From a beta proteobacterium AAP65 (GTDB lineage Bacteria; Pseudomonadota; Gammaproteobacteria; Burkholderiales; Burkholderiaceae_C): a DNA stretch of 64,000 bases. This document shows, piece after piece, positions 33,157-38,748 of this stretch. The position numbers and the translations under genes were made by a program. Position 1 is the first letter of the stretch, and each line of letters begins with the position of its first letter. The notes under the pieces were generated by a model. It was not told the origin of the DNA. It saw nothing but the letters and a program-made list of their open reading frames with translations, and ran no database searches. Location: NCBI GenBank assembly GCA_001295865.1, contig LJHW01000043.1:1-64000 (forward strand). Reading direction: 5' to 3'.

Positions 33157-34221
33157 TCACTGCACCATCTGCGCGAGCTCGCCGCTGGCGTAACGCCGTG
33201 CCACTTCGCTCATGGCCATGGGCTTGATCTTGCCGGCCTGGCCTTCGCAGCCGAATTCCATGTAGCGCTGCTTGCACACCTTGTAGGCGGCTTCACGCGC
33301 CGGCTTGAGCCATTCGCGCGCATCGAACTTGTCCGGGTTCTCGGCCAGGAACTTGCGCACCGCGCCCGTCATCGCCAGGCGGATGTCGGTGTCGATGTTG
33401 ATCTTGCGCACGCCGTGCTTGATGGCTTCCTGGATCTCTTCCACCGGCACGCCGAAGGTCTCTTTCATCTTGCCGCCGTACTGGTTGATGATGGCCAGCA
33501 GCTCCTGCGGCACGCTGGACGAGCCGTGCATCACCAGGTGCGTGTTCGGGATGCGCTTGTGGATCTCTTTCACGCGGCCGATGGCCAGGATGTCGCCCGT
33601 GGGCTTGCGGCTGAACTTGTAGGCGCCGTGGCTGGTGCCGATGGCAATCGCCAGCGCGTCGAGCTGCGTGGCCTTCACGAAGACGGCGGCTTCTTCGGGG
33701 TCGGTCAGCATCTGGCTGTGGTCGAGCTTGCCTTCGGCGCCGATGCCGTCTTCTTCGCCGGCTTCGCCGGTTTCCAGGTTGCCCAGGCAGCCGAGTTCAC
33801 CTTCCACCGTCACGCCCACGGCATGGGCCATGTCCACCACCTTGCGCGTGACCTCGACGTTGTAGTCGAAGCTGGCCGGCGTCTTGCCATCGGCCTGCAG
33901 GCTGCCGTCCATCATCACCGAGCCGAAGCCCAGGTCGATGGCGCCCTGGCAGATGGCGGGCGTCTGGCCGTGGTCTTGGTGCATCACGAGCGGGATGTGC
34001 GGGTAGGCCTCTACCGCGGCCTGGATCAGGTGCTTGATGAAGGCCTCGCCGGCGTACTTGCGGGCACCGGCGCTGGCCTGCAGGATGACGGGCGCGCCCA
34101 CCTCGGCAGCGGCCGTCATCACGGCCTGCACCTGTTCGAGGTTGTTCACGTTGAAGGCCGGGATGCCATAGCCGTTTTCGGCGGCATGGTCGAGCAGCTG
34201 GCGCATCGAGACGAGAGGCAT
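33157..34221 (-). CDS. fba: Class II fructose-1,6-bisphosphate aldolase
   Basis: 354 aa zinc aldolase of glycolysis/gluconeogenesis, of the longer class IIB/Calvin-type subfamily. [19 protein letters not shown] starts the protein; HQDHGQTP has Asp83 and the zinc ligand His84; NYDVEV-like and HGSSSVP motifs and [13 protein letters not shown] are conserved. ATG 34221 has TGGAG about 8 nt upstream; longer in-frame starts give Pro/Cys-rich sequence. A TAGAAT hexamer at 34328-34333 (minus) could be its -10, leaving a leader near 100 nt. Confidence 0.96.
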
Positions 34222-34391
34222 GGGAAAACTCCAGGAGTGATGAAGCGGGCACCGGCGCGGCAGCGCGCCACAGGCCACAGGCAAGCGGGGCAAAAGCACC
34301 GCTGTAACCGGCCTGAAACTGCGCCCGATTCTAGGCGGCCCCCCATCGCCGGCCCGCAGAGCGCCTGCGCGCCGCGGGCACGAACTGGCGG

Positions 34392-35528
34392 TTGAACGTG
34401 CCGCTTTTCGCGCTCAAGCCTGGCGCTCCGCACCCCGACACTGCGCACATGCCGGCCATGGGGCCAGCGCCACCGATGCAAGCCATGGCCCGCTACGACC
34501 TCGCACCCCTGACGCAATGGATCACCGCTGCCGCAGTGCAGCACGGCCAGGCCTTGCCGGCCCACCTGATGGCCCGCCTGGGCATCAGCCGGCGCCGCGC
34601 CAACCTGCTGCTGCACAAACTGGTGGCGGCGCAATGGCTGCTGAGCACGGGTACGCCGCGCAAGCCGCAGCACGCGCCCGGCGCCCTGCGGCAGGTGGTG
34701 CAGCGCTACCCGCTGGCCGGGCTGGAAGAAGACACGCCCTGGCGCCGCGATTTCGCGCCCTTCTTCGAGCTGCCGGCCCCCGTGCAGCGCATGGCGCGCC
34801 ACGCCTTCACCGAGCTGCTGAACAACGCCTCCGAGCACAGCGGCGGCACGCAGGTCACGGTGTCGATGCGGCAGACGCCACTGCAGTTGCAGTTGCTGGT
34901 CAGCGACGACGGCTGCGGCGTCTTCGAGCGCATCGGCCAGAGCTTCGCCATCGACGACCCGCTGCTGGCCATGCTGGAGCTCAGCAAGGGCAAGCTGACC
35001 AGCGCGCCCAAGGGCCACTGCGGACACGGCCTGTTCTTCACCTCGCGCCTGGCCGACGTGTTCGACCTGCATGCCAACCACGCGGCTTTTCAGTGCCGCG
35101 CCTGGGAAAACCGCCCCTGGCGCGCAGGCAGGCCGGTGGCACGGCAAGGCACCAGCATCTACCTGGCCATCGCGCTGGACACGACACGCACGCTCGACGC
35201 CGTGCTGCGCGCCCACAGCGTGGACGCCGGCTACCGCTTCGACCGCACCGTGGTGCCGCTGCACCTCCTGGGTGGTGCTGAGCAGGCCCTGGTGAGCCGC
35301 GCCGATGCGCGCCGCGTGGCCGCGCGCCTGGGCGAGTTCCGCCGCGCCGACATCAACTTCGAGGGCATCCACGACATCGGCCATGGCTTTGCGGATGAGC
35401 TCTTTCGCGTTTTTCGGCGCGACAATCCGGGCCTGCAACTGGTGCCGGTGGGCATGAACCGCGAGGTGCAGGCCATGGTGGCCAGCGTCGGCCCGGTCAT
35501 GGCGGCCGGTGCAACCCCGAACGCATGA
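34392..35528 (+). CDS. HTH + GHKL ATPase + STAS-like (DUF4325) regulatory protein
   Basis: Up to 378 aa. A winged-helix-like N-terminus ([18 protein letters not shown], about 61-78) precedes a GHKL ATPase fold: N-box [15 protein letters not shown] (Glu141, Asn145), [11 protein letters not shown] (Asp172) and CGHGLFF (210-216). The C-terminal 90 residues resemble the STAS-like DUF4325 domain. There is no H-box or membrane segment, so it looks like an anti-sigma-type kinase or ATP-dependent switch rather than a sensor kinase. The start is uncertain: TTG 34392 is the longest frame, but ATG 34476 or 34485 (MARYDLAPL) are plausible. The stop overlaps the DUF481 start (ATGA). Confidence 0.82.
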
Positions 35529-36328
35529 CCCTGACACGCCTGCCCGACCTCCGCCGAACCACACGCCTGAAAACTGCCGCGCAGCTGCTGCTGGCGCTGG
35601 CCACCGCACCCGCACTGGCCCAGGTGACGGTCAAGCCCGACGGCCAGTGGCGCTCGCTCACCACGGCCGGCCTCACCGTCAACAGCGGCAACACACGCGC
35701 CACGGCCCTCAACCTCAGCCTCGACGGTGTGCGCGCCACCGAGAGCAGCAAGTGGTCGGCCACCGGGCAGATGCTTTACACCGACAGCAACGGCCGGACC
35801 ACCGGCAAACGCGCGCTGGTGAGCTCGCAGTACAACGGCGACATCGAACCCTGGCGGCGCAGCTTCGGCTTCGTGCAGGCCGCCGGCCTCACCGACCGCC
35901 CCGCCAACACGCGCGAGCGGCTCACGCTCACCAGCGGCATGGGCCTGCACCTGCTGAAGGCCCCGAACCAGTTCTGGGACGCCTGGGCCGGCCTGGCCGT
36001 GGCGCACGAACGTTATGTGCGCCCGGTGGACACCCAAGGCGACGGCACGCTGCGCAGCGAACTCACCGACCTCGGCCTCGTGCTGGCGCAAGAGGCCAAC
36101 CTGCGTTTGAGCCCCAGCACCACCCTGCGCCAGAAACTCGTGCTGCTGCCCAGCCTGCGCGAAAGCGGCCTGGTGCGCACCGAGTTCGACGGCCAGGTCT
36201 CCGTGGCCATCAGCGAACGTGTGAGCCTGAGCACGGGCTTGAGCCTGCGCCACACCACACGCCCGGCCCCCGGGCTGCGCAACACCGACTTGACGTTGGT
36301 GACGGGACTGTCGCTGCGCTACGACTGA
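35525..36328 (+). CDS. DUF481 family outer-membrane-type protein
   Basis: 267 aa with a signal peptide ending ATAPALAQ (about residue 33) and then alternating beta strands (TTAGLTVNSGNTRATALNLSL, SKWSATGQML) characteristic of DUF481/YdiY-like outer membrane beta-barrels. The terminal residues VTGLSLRYD lack a C-terminal Phe but end in aromatic-X-Asp. Probably an outer membrane barrel of unknown function. Translationally coupled to the upstream HTH-ATPase gene, an unusual pairing that hints at joint regulation. A bidirectional terminator follows. Confidence 0.83.
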   Translation: MTLTRLPDLRRTTRLKTAAQLLLALATAPALAQVTVKPDGQWRSLTTAGLTVNSGNTRATALNLSLDGVRATESSKWSATGQMLYTDSNGRTTGKRALVSSQYNGDIEPWRRSFGFVQAAGLTDRPANTRERLTLTSGMGLHLLKAPNQFWDAWAGLAVAHERYVRPVDTQGDGTLRSELTDLGLVLAQEANLRLSPSTTLRQKLVLLPSLRESGLVRTEFDGQVSVAISERVSLSTGLSLRHTTRPAPGLRNTDLTLVTGLSLRYD

Positions 36329-36341
36329 CAGCAGGGCAAAG

Positions 36342-36367
36342 AAAAACGGGCCCGCAGGCCCGTTTTC
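36342..36367. terminator. Bidirectional intrinsic terminator
   Basis: AAAACGGGCC (36343-36352), loop CGCA, GGCCCGTTTT (36357-36366). GC-rich 6-bp core with A/T tracts on both sides, so it can stop the DUF481 gene on plus and the PEP-CTERM gene on minus. Confidence 0.85.
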
Positions 36368-36409
36368 GGTGGCCGGCCCGCAGGCCGGCGTTCAAGCTTT
36401 TCGGGCCGC

Positions 36410-37117
36410 TCAGGCCTTGCGGCGACGCGCCAGACCGGCCACGGCCAGGCCACCGGCCAGCATCATGGCCCAGGTGCCCGGCTCGGGCACCAGGCTGCCT
36501 TGCACGATGAACGGGAACTCCACGCCCAAGCCGTCACCGGCGTCCACCACGCCCGCGAAGGCGGCGTTGGCCAGGCTCTGCTGCGCGTTGCCGAAAGCAC
36601 CGTCGGCGGTGGGCGGCTGCCACGGGCCCGAGGCCAGCGAGCCGGTGATGCCCCAACGCAGCCAGTAGCTGCCGGGGGCCAGATCGAAATCAGCCACGTT
36701 CACGTCGAGGCGGAAGATGGCGCGGTCGGTGTTGGTCAGCGTCGTGGACGTGACGCGGTAGCCCACCAGCCCGCCGTTGGTGGGCGTGCCCGAACCCGAG
36801 GCCACCACGGTGCCGCTGGTGACGTCACCGGAGACGATGCTCCAGTTCAGGCCCGTGAAGGTGTAGGTGCTGGCTGCGAACGACTGGTAGCTGAAGAAAC
36901 TCAGGCTCTCCACCGTCCAGCCCGGGCCACCGACGGTGAAGTCGTCGGCCACCAGGTTGGGGATGTTGCCCTGGGCACCAGCGCCGAACAGCGTACCGCC
37001 CGCACGGATGACGGAGATGGGCGGCGTGCCGGCAACCGCGGCGCCGTTGTTGTACAGGTCGACCGCTTGCGCCGAACCGGCGGCAGCGATCAGGCCCAAG
37101 GCGATGATCTTCTTCAT
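36410..37117 (-). CDS. PEP-CTERM sorting domain protein
   Basis: 235 aa exported protein with signal peptide MKKIIALGLIAAAGSAQA and a C-terminal sorting signal: VPEPGTWAMM, a hydrophobic helix, then ARRRKA (residues about 210-235). Such tails are recognised by exosortase/archaeosortase-type transpeptidases. The middle is a predicted beta-sandwich with many Gly, Thr and Ser and no catalytic motif. AGGAG lies 6 nt before the ATG. It is an orphan: the exosortase-associated genes in this window start 20 kb away at 57312. It is a plausible substrate of that system. Confidence 0.92.
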   Translation of the reverse strand: MKKIIALGLIAAAGSAQAVDLYNNGAAVAGTPPISVIRAGGTLFGAGAQGNIPNLVADDFTVGGPGWTVESLSFFSYQSFAASTYTFTGLNWSIVSGDVTSGTVVASGSGTPTNGGLVGYRVTSTTLTNTDRAIFRLDVNVADFDLAPGSYWLRWGITGSLASGPWQPPTADGAFGNAQQSLANAAFAGVVDAGDGLGVEFPFIVQGSLVPEPGTWAMMLAGGLAVAGLARRRKA

Positions 37118-37317
37118 GGCTCACTCCTGGCTGTGTAGGGAAGGTGACTTCGACCCGGCACGGTGTCGCCGCGATGACGAGACCCGGTCTGGTGAAACCC
37201 GACGCTAGTCCTGCGCCGCCCGCCCCACAAGGCGGCCTACACCCGCGAACCCGGGGTCGCCGAGCCCGTCCCCCTAGTTTGACGCCTGCACCAGGGCCTC
37301 CAGGGAGCCCCTCTCGG

Positions 37318-38748
37318 TCACTTGACCTGGCAGACCTTCAGCATGTTGGTCCCGCCGGGGTAGCCCATGGGCTCGCCGCAGGTGATGGCGTAGGTATCGC
37401 CGGGCTTGAGCACGCCGCGCGCCACCAGCACCTGCTCGGCCTCGGCCAGGGCCTGGTCGCGGTCGTTGTGGGTGGGCATCAGGATGGGCTGCACGTTGCG
37501 GTACAGCGCCATGCGGCGCTCGGACTGCTGCTTGTGCGTGAGGCCGTAGATCGGCACCTGGATGTTGTGCCGGCTCATCCACAGCGCGGTGCTGCCGCTT
37601 TCGGTGAGCGCGATGATGGCCTTGCAGCCCAGGTGGTGCGCCGTGAACAGCGCGCCCATCGCGATGCTCTGGTCGATGCGCCCGAAGTGGCGCTGCATGA
37701 AGTCGTCCTTGAAGTTGACTTCTTCGGCGCGTTCGGCCTCCAGCGCGATGGCGGCCATCTGCTCCACCGTCTCCACCGGGAACTTGCCGGCGGCGGTTTC
37801 GGCGCTCAGCATCACGGCGTCGGTGCCATCCAGCACGGCGTTGGCGACGTCGCTGACCTCGGCACGTGTGGGCACGGGCGCGAGGATCATGCTTTCCATC
37901 ATCTGCGTGGCGGTGATGACGACCTTGTCCATCTGCCGCGCCATGCGGATCATGCGTTTTTGCAGCGCCGGCACGGCCGCGTTGCCCACCTCCACCGCCA
38001 GGTCGCCGCGCGCCACCATGATGCCGTCGCTGGCCTTGAGGATGGCCTCCAGGTGCGGGATGGCCTCGCTGCGCTCGATCTTCGCGATCATCGCCGGCTT
38101 GTGGCGCGTGGCCTCGCCGGCCACGTTGGCGAGCTGGCGCGCCATCTCCATGTCGGTGGCGTTTTTCGGGAAGCTCACCGCCAGGTACTCGCACTGGAAG
38201 GCCATGGCGGTCTTGATGTCCTCCATGTCCTTGGCCGTGAGCGCCGGCGCCGTGAGGCCGCCACCAGCCTTGTTGATGCCTTTGTTGTTGCTGAGCTCGC
38301 CGCCCAGCACCACACGCGTGTGCACCTGCTCGCCGCGCACGGCTTCCACGGTCAGTTTGATGAGGCCGTCGTTCAGCAGCAGGGTGTCGCCGGGGCGCAC
38401 GTCGCGCGGCAGTTCCTTGTAGTCCAGGCCCACGGCCGTGAGGTCACCCGGCTCGGTGCGCTGCGCATCCAGCACGAAGGCAGCGCCTGGCTCCAGCATC
38501 ACCTTGCCGTCGACGAACTTGCCGACGCGGATCTTCGGGCCCTGCAGGTCGGCCATCAGCGCGATGGGTTTGCCGACCTTGGCAGCCACTTCGCGCACGA
38601 GGTTCGCGCGGTCGATGTGGTCTTGCGCCTTGCCGTGGCTGAAGTTCAGCCGCACCACGTCGACACCGGCGCGCAGCAGGCGTTCGAGCACGCCGGGGTC
38701 GCTGGAGGCAGGGCCGAGGGTGGCGACGATCTTGGTGGCGCGCATCAT
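37318..38748 (-). CDS. pyk: Pyruvate kinase
   Basis: 476 aa glycolytic enzyme converting PEP and ADP to pyruvate and ATP. MRATKIVATLGPASSDPGVL, RLNFSHG, LMADLQGPKIRVG, the catalytic region MIAKIERSEA and the signature GIMVARGDLAVEVG are intact, and VITATQMMESM is present. Two in-frame ATGs (38748 and 38745) are equivalent. GGAGACAG lies about 10 nt upstream. A minus-strand GATAAT at 38784-38789 is a likely -10. Confidence 0.97.
   Translation of the reverse strand: MMRATKIVATLGPASSDPGVLERLLRAGVDVVRLNFSHGKAQDHIDRANLVREVAAKVGKPIALMADLQGPKIRVGKFVDGKVMLEPGAAFVLDAQRTEPGDLTAVGLDYKELPRDVRPGDTLLLNDGLIKLTVEAVRGEQVHTRVVLGGELSNNKGINKAGGGLTAPALTAKDMEDIKTAMAFQCEYLAVSFPKNATDMEMARQLANVAGEATRHKPAMIAKIERSEAIPHLEAILKASDGIMVARGDLAVEVGNAAVPALQKRMIRMARQMDKVVITATQMMESMILAPVPTRAEVSDVANAVLDGTDAVMLSAETAAGKFPVETVEQMAAIALEAERAEEVNFKDDFMQRHFGRIDQSIAMGALFTAHHLGCKAIIALTESGSTALWMSRHNIQVPIYGLTHKQQSERRMALYRNVQPILMPTHNDRDQALAEAEQVLVARGVLKPGDTYAITCGEPMGYPGGTNMLKVCQVK

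Follow-up and report, generated by a model that had tools for sequence, protein, structure and literature searches.

The window analysed here is a stretch of 64,000 nucleotides from an assembly of 4.84 Mb in 95 contigs, which belongs to the Rubrivivax group of Burkholderiales. It carries a gene for a single-chain protein, hereafter referred to as the regulator, in which a winged helix-turn-helix (wHTH), a GHKL ATPase and a STAS-like DUF4325 domain follow one another. Among named records, that of Rubrivivax rivuli is closest to the locus, with 97% identity over the matched protein. The genes and features of the locus are the following.

33157..34221, minus strand: fba, class II fructose-bisphosphate aldolase (Pfam F_bP_aldolase, 317.6 bits), a conserved divergent neighbour
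34328..34333, minus strand: probable fba −10 element (TAGAAT), suggested by its conservation in the upstream alignment
34404..34442, plus strand: promoter-like element CTTTTC-N3-CTCAAG-N15-CCCGACACT, from the alignment of orthologous upstream regions
34485..35528, plus strand: wHTH-GHKL-STAS(DUF4325) regulator gene, probable start ATG 34485 (orthologue starts; Pfam; model)
34485..34679, plus strand: wHTH domain, residues 1–65 from ATG 34485 (AlphaFold2 secondary structure; MarR_2 in 27 of 54 orthologues)
34683..35186, plus strand: SpoIIAB/RsbW-like GHKL (Bergerat) ATPase domain, residues 67–234 (VIA-align; alignment)
35244..35489, plus strand: STAS-like DUF4325 domain, residues 254–335 (Pfam 30.1 bits, cut-off 23; fold match of the domain alone)
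35525..36328, plus strand: DUF481 outer-membrane barrel gene with an apparent signal peptide, judged by eye (Pfam 98.9 bits), a clade-specific neighbour
36410..37117, minus strand: PEP-CTERM protein gene between the barrel gene and pyk (Pfam PEP-CTERM, 27.2 bits)
37318..38748, minus strand: pyk, pyruvate kinase (Pfam PK, 363.5 bits, and PK_C, 120.4 bits), a conserved convergent neighbour

The regulator ORF can be read from TTG 34392, the start taken in the first-pass annotation of this DNA. In orthologues, however, ATG codons align at or near position 34485, and the promoter-like conserved sequence at 34404–34442 falls inside the first 17 codons of the ORF read from the TTG; the upstream DNA of the orthologues aligns as a promoter, not as a protein. 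TTG 34392 is therefore probably the wrong start, and these alignments make ATG 34485, 31 codons after it, the most likely one. The 4-nt overlap with the DUF481 barrel gene noted in the same annotation is seen as ATGA at 35525–35528 and is also present in Rubrivivax rivuli.

On the opposite strand, the fba ORF is open to 34299 and its probable ATG is at 34221. A direct repeat, GTAACC-N5-GAAACT (34304–34320), lies between the fba −10 element and the fba start. The repeat is found in many relatives, including the regulator-less locus L238, and is degenerate in some regulator-bearing genomes (for example, at L013, L016 and L019); it was rejected as an operator of the regulator on both grounds and is a possible aldolase control site. 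A palindrome, AAGCGCGCTT, noticed upstream of a few family members, was also rejected, as it occurs in only 1 of 81 loci.

Domains, fold and sequence motifs of the regulator

Pfam search with the window chain returned DUF4325 (29.8 bits, cut-off 23) and HATPase_c (26.9 bits, cut-off 26.4) above their cut-offs, and HATPase_c_2 (25.6 bits, cut-off 27.4) and an N-terminal MarR_2 match (15.6 bits, cut-off 27) below them. When 54 orthologues were scanned one by one, DUF4325 and HATPase_c_2 were found in all 54 and MarR_2 in 27 (best 8e-7). Other families, many of them HTH or winged-helix, matched 1 to 8 members each, with no coordinates given.

An AlphaFold2 model built from a 54-sequence alignment (53 of 80 loci plus the window) has a mean pLDDT of 90.7 and a pTM of 0.87. 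At its N-terminus, helices 13–32 and 36–48 are followed by strands 52–57 and 60–65, a winged-helix pattern with elements in residues 6–65; block pLDDT is 92–96 at residues 11–70 and 70 at residues 1–10. Together with the MarR_2 matches of half of the orthologues (27/54), this pattern supports a winged helix-turn-helix with a wing at the N-terminus. The first-pass annotation had proposed a DNA-binding-like N-terminus, to be doubted if this segment did not model as a helix-turn-helix; it does model as one.

Comparison of the model with known structures by VIA-align placed the ATPase domain closest to the anti-sigma kinase SpoIIAB (1l0o_A, Z 14.1, 133 of 141 residues aligned, rmsd 2.6). The next matches of the full-length model were SpoIIAB 1til_E (Z 14.0), UsfX (12.0) and RsbW (11.9), followed by LvrC (10.7) and by MutL, gyrase and DesK (about 9–10). 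A sequence search of solved structures yielded eight weak matches, five of them GHKL histidine kinases (best E 0.001) and three ribosomal S10. Identity as a DesK-type histidine kinase was rejected, since DesK ranks below SpoIIAB in the fold comparison.

The C-terminal domain was also modelled alone (pLDDT 80.6). Its matches include the STAS region of SLC26A11 (Z 7.3), TM1442 (7.2), RsbS 6jhk_A (7.1) and SpoIIAA 1thn_B (7.1), and most of 50 fold-match rows are chains with STAS domains. These similarities are modest, all with Z below 8 and Foldseek E above 0.05, so that the predicted STAS fold is supported by the fold match jointly with Pfam and not by the fold match by itself. Pfam, the model and the SpoIIAB-best fold match agree with the first-pass annotation on a Bergerat-fold ATPase and DUF4325 in one chain; the likeness it saw to an anti-sigma/anti-anti-sigma pair fused to a regulator is backed by sequence families and fold comparison alike.

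The ATPase motifs are highly conserved. N-box residues Glu110 and Asn114 are invariant in 54/54 sequences, DxGxG and GxGL motifs are likewise present in all 54, and the wider N-box pattern is found in 53. By sequence, the Bergerat ATP-binding motifs are intact. According to a study of RsbW, its Glu49 contacts phosphorylated Ser56 of RsbV (PMC7340262); read from the motif, Glu110 would correspond to this residue.

The STAS domain looks different. The serine expected to be phosphorylated in RsbS/SpoIIAA-type proteins, whose position was placed by motif and not by superposition, is replaced by Gly or Ala in 48 of 54 near sequences (two of which, reading HAFAHE, missed the site pattern and were counted as Ala by eye) and in 28 of 29 further homologues. 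The site mostly reads IGHGFADE or IGQAFADE. Thus, at the position set by motif, no conserved phospho-acceptor Ser/Thr was seen at the start of STAS helix 2 in the 54 near and 29 further sequences, which makes classical partner switching unlikely: to judge from these alignments, the domain is unlikely to be a classical phosphorylation switch in most members. Since serine is kept in 6/54 near sequences and 1/29 further ones, phosphorylation may persist in some members.

Distribution and genomic neighbourhood

The regulator gene is present in 35 of 60 congeneric genomes (E < 1e-50, the window's own counted), a conservation that excludes chance. At E ≤ 1e-20, homologues were found in 66 of 299 family genomes and in 21 of 299 order genomes from 17 families, while none were found in plasmid and phage collections. 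ORF calling recovered the regulator in 76 of 81 near loci. The set of further homologues comprised 34 loci, 5 of which had no called regulator ORF and were left out; most of the remaining 29 are distant, L224 being a near orthologue among them, and the alignment of the 29 covers all three domains in every case. Across a broad Burkholderiales family, kinase, STAS and DNA-binding domains are found together in a single chain.

The position of the gene is also conserved. Of the 78 loci in which 1 kb or more of upstream sequence is available, 69 have fba divergent from the regulator. Where 1.5 kb or more is available downstream, pyk is convergent within 3 kb in 60/75 loci and within 300 nt in 32/75. 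In 25 regulator-less congeners (of 60) searched with fba, the aldolase gene was present in 18, at 20 loci in total. Both fba and pyk were found at thirteen of them; in nine of the thirteen the two genes share a strand and the pyk match ends no more than 200 nt upstream of fba. Where the regulator is present, it thus occupies a slot between genes that commonly adjoin each other in its absence; it may have been gained there or lost elsewhere.

No conserved effector gene was seen in the pyk-fba slot. The first called gene downstream of the regulator is pyk in 29 of 76 loci, there is none in 2, and the others fall into 27 different clusters. The neighbours of the further homologues (106 of 111 ORFs scanned, one ORF of L206 and four of L224 being left out and the latter four scanned separately) share no common family, the commonest Pfam families occurring three times among the 106 proteins. 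One further homologue, L222, also lies between fba and pyk. In the window, Pfam assigned the other nine proteins scanned between 28832 and 41130 to metabolic, methyltransferase, DUF3426, DUF481 or PEP-CTERM families, and no sigma factor or separate STAS gene was found among the ten proteins scanned.

The stretch from the regulator to pyk (35529–37317 in the window, and its equivalents elsewhere) looks like a variable cargo slot with different genes by lineage. An ORF related to the PEP-CTERM gene at 36410–37117 was observed in the corresponding stretch of L093, L094, L098 and L105.

The first gene of this stretch in the window, that of the DUF481 barrel, is a plain member of PF04338 (98.9 bits, cut-off 21.1). 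The first-pass annotation had treated it as the surface protein to which the cytoplasmic switch is tied, a reading in which the role of the regulator is to govern the barrel or to report on it. The two genes do overlap by 4 nt in the window and in Rubrivivax rivuli and are a few nt apart in strain AAP51, and by tblastn there is a fourth case among the 81 loci, Rhizobacter Root1221, with a separate DUF481-like gene (33% identity) after a 156-nt gap downstream of the regulator. One more regulator-linked barrel (L087, 50% identity) was found among 30 family loci. Against this, the barrel adjoins the regulator in only 3/60 congeners (the window species, Rubrivivax rivuli and AAP51) and 4/81 loci, even though a DUF481 gene is present in 26/60 congeners; the other 23 carry it on a different contig from the regulator or have no regulator. 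The Rubrivivax rivuli and AAP51 regulators are the most similar to the window's among congeners, and in the sampled congeners nothing links the DUF481 family to the regulator outside this one clade. We regard it as very unlikely that the regulator serves to govern or report on the barrel, and the barrel was rejected as a conserved partner. On the reading favoured below it is a recent neighbour and not the output of the system, probably co-transcribed with the regulator in one clade. As to whether the pair is conserved or confined to one strain, it is not conserved, but it is found in three close species rather than one.

The three regulator-linked barrels (G000:C38:35663-36310, G031:C29:7344-7985 and G039:C22:873864-874511) score lowest with Pfam among the 26 barrels of the genus sample (89–100 versus 111–145 bits), so they may be a distinct DUF481 subtype.

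The upstream element and its resemblance to FliA promoters

The promoter-like element recurs upstream of the regulator as CTTTTC-N3-CTCAAG-N14/15-CGACACTG, and a loose pattern of its first half is found in 20/81 loci. CTnAAG-N13-16-nCCGAnA or a close form occurs in 13 of the 81 loci, compared to 0.08 on shuffling, and nACACTG in 46 upstream regions, compared to 2.4. Since the 59 aligned upstream regions were picked by the hexamer nACACT, its presence in their consensus is no evidence by itself.

In its −35 and CCGA parts the element, CTCAAG-N14/15-CCGACA, resembles a promoter of FliA (sigma 28). This raises the possibility of a flagellar link, in which FliA would help to transcribe the gene and the protein would be an anti-sigma-like modulator of motility. 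A FliA-likeness score of at least 10 was obtained for 31/81 regulator upstream regions versus 77/1006 control ORFs, although the test is partly circular because its seven-promoter motif set was read by eye, and the controls include genes with FliA-type promoters. FliA also co-occurs with the regulator: it is encoded in 64/66 regulator-bearing versus 174/233 other family genomes (n = 299, Fisher p 9e-6, with kinship and genome size uncontrolled), in 33/34 genera with the regulator versus 67/92 without (p 0.001) and in 34/35 versus 19/25 congeners (p 0.017). The two regulator-bearing family genomes without FliA are G206, which has a distant homologue, and G325, which is 93% complete. At the order level the association is weak (18/21 versus 185/278, p 0.05), and ancestry and genome size are uncontrolled. 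Moreover, CCGACA is the form found in each of the 13 strict matches before the regulator, CCGATA in none. In five of the same set of loci, another gene has FliA-type promoters that carry GCCGATAA and reach a score of 22, compared to 14.5 for the window's element. Flagellar families are absent from the commonest neighbour families of the further homologues (first 25 of 127). We regard a flagellar role as very unlikely.

Genome-wide, a strict FliA pattern had 11 matches versus 4 for a reversed control pattern, and a loose match was found in 2 of 31 MCP/flagellin loci scanned. The other gene with a FliA-type promoter (CTCAAG-N14/15-GCCGATAA) in five loci is small, about 120–160 aa, and lies 5–8 kb from the regulator, on the minus strand in each case (L097:16173-16553, L118:18341-18766, L136:18326-18712, L147:18373-18858 and L148:18645-19016); two members tested had no Pfam match. 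In the window's genome, a FliA-like site at G000:C13:16994-17020 precedes a gene for a secreted-looking 162-aa protein located directly before an MCP gene.

Possible mode of action and relation to known systems

GHKL kinase/STAS partner switching normally involves several proteins and acts on a sigma factor. Here, computation shows three folds in one chain, intact ATP-binding motifs, usual absence of the STAS serine and a pyk-fba slot without a conserved effector. We tentatively favour, at somewhat less than an even chance, a stand-alone single-chain regulator whose DNA binding is set by ATP state or a ligand and not by partner exchange. The winged helix would contact DNA. The central SpoIIAB/RsbW-type ATPase would bind ATP and change state, and the C-terminal STAS domain would dock on it in cis as a built-in, mostly non-phosphorylatable partner. 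The ATPase with its tethered STAS would in turn control the winged helix, so that ATP state or a ligand would set DNA binding. The regulator's own promoter and the shared fba promoter would be the first candidate targets.

The main competitor, which we consider unlikely though a serious candidate, comes from CapK, an HTH-STAS-GHKL kinase activated by single-stranded DNA (ssDNA) that phosphorylates the repressor CapS, the two forming a DNA-damage-activated kinase-repressor pair according to its description (EMBO J 2026, PMC13373217). By analogy, the ATPase of the regulator would phosphorylate a separate, unlinked STAS protein or repressor, with the HTH as an accessory, and a ligand (single-stranded DNA in CapK) bound between STAS and ATPase would trigger the kinase. 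The same three domain types are present in one chain in both proteins, and the N-box glutamate is invariant in the regulator, as would suit a kinase in view of the RsbW contact with phosphorylated RsbV (PMC7340262). In CapK, the model assigns the STAS domain next to the kinase to the ssDNA site rather than making it a substrate (PMC13373217), which fits a STAS domain that lacks the serine; deletion of the HTH had no observed effect on CapK signalling, so that the regulator does not necessarily act through its HTH. On the other hand, the order of domains differs, capS follows capK in 443/443 cases in the same source whereas the next gene of the regulator varies, and the window offers no defence context: the regulator protein has no PADLOC match and no plasmid or phage match, on which grounds a defence or mobile-element reading was rejected. 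Scattered PADLOC models (DrmD, HmaA/B, BrxH, PDC-S09 and others) were found among neighbours of the further homologues, each in 1–2 of the 106 proteins. The regulator may nevertheless work in a CapK-like way on an unlinked substrate.

A bolder version of the single-chain reading makes the protein an energy-charge sensor for glycolysis: the ATPase would read ATP/ADP, and the winged helix would set fba transcription from the shared divergent promoter. In full, fusion of an anti-sigma kinase and its antagonist fold with a winged helix would have produced a self-contained energy-charge switch, with DNA binding following ATP/ADP and partner exchange barred by the missing phospho-serine; its seat between pyk and fba would have given aldolase its own promoter, uncoupled from pyruvate kinase. 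The divergent arrangement with fba in 69/78 loci is consistent with this, as is the adjacency of pyk and fba in 9/13 regulator-less congener loci, since the regulator's slot separates the two genes and fba is probably transcribed there from a promoter of its own. However, fba is not the divergent neighbour in 9 of 78 near loci, and only L222 is known to lie beside it among the further homologues examined, which means that fba is no obligate target. Regulator-less L238 also has the repeat near the fba −10 element, and adjacency to fba is explicable by positional inheritance. We judge both the sensor and the uncoupling of aldolase from pyruvate kinase to be improbable, and the fully developed switch no less so. 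The more general single-chain regulator is the reading we retain.

Among the papers listed by the literature searches, none deals with the function of the HTH-GHKL-STAS architecture, the CapK paper being the nearest. The regulator shares HTH, STAS and GHKL kinase domains in one chain with CapK, and both are SpoIIAB-like, CapK itself being likened to SpoIIAB-type anti-sigma kinases in its description (PMC13373217). CapK has the order HTH-STAS-GHKL, whereas in the regulator HTH (1–65) is followed by GHKL (67–234) and STAS (254–335). CapK is always followed by capS and 348/443 CapKS pairs precede immune operons (PMC13373217), whereas the regulator lies between pyk and fba and is followed by DUF481 in the window and by a variable gene, not always identified, over 76 loci. 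Because of the different domain order and the absence of an adjacent capS in the window, we do not file the regulator as CapK, on comparison with CapK's published description. It represents a coherent, widespread regulator variant without a conserved partner, with a CapK-distinct domain order and no CapK partner gene.

With SpoIIAB/RsbW the regulator has in common the ATPase fold (Z 14.1 to SpoIIAB) and the N-box Glu and Asn, and with SpoIIAA/RsbV/RsbS the STAS fold (Z 7.1 to SpoIIAA and RsbS). The C-terminal domain matches PF14213 (DUF4325, STAS-like, unknown function) above the curated cut-off; titles and abstract openings of the literature naming DUF4325 hold nothing on its function. If DNA binding by the regulator is ATP-dependent, it would give DUF4325 a function and would illustrate how a plain transcription factor can arise from an anti-sigma switch. 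In SpoIIAB/RsbW systems the partners are separate proteins, whereas the regulator fuses both folds with a winged helix and mostly lacks the STAS phospho-serine.
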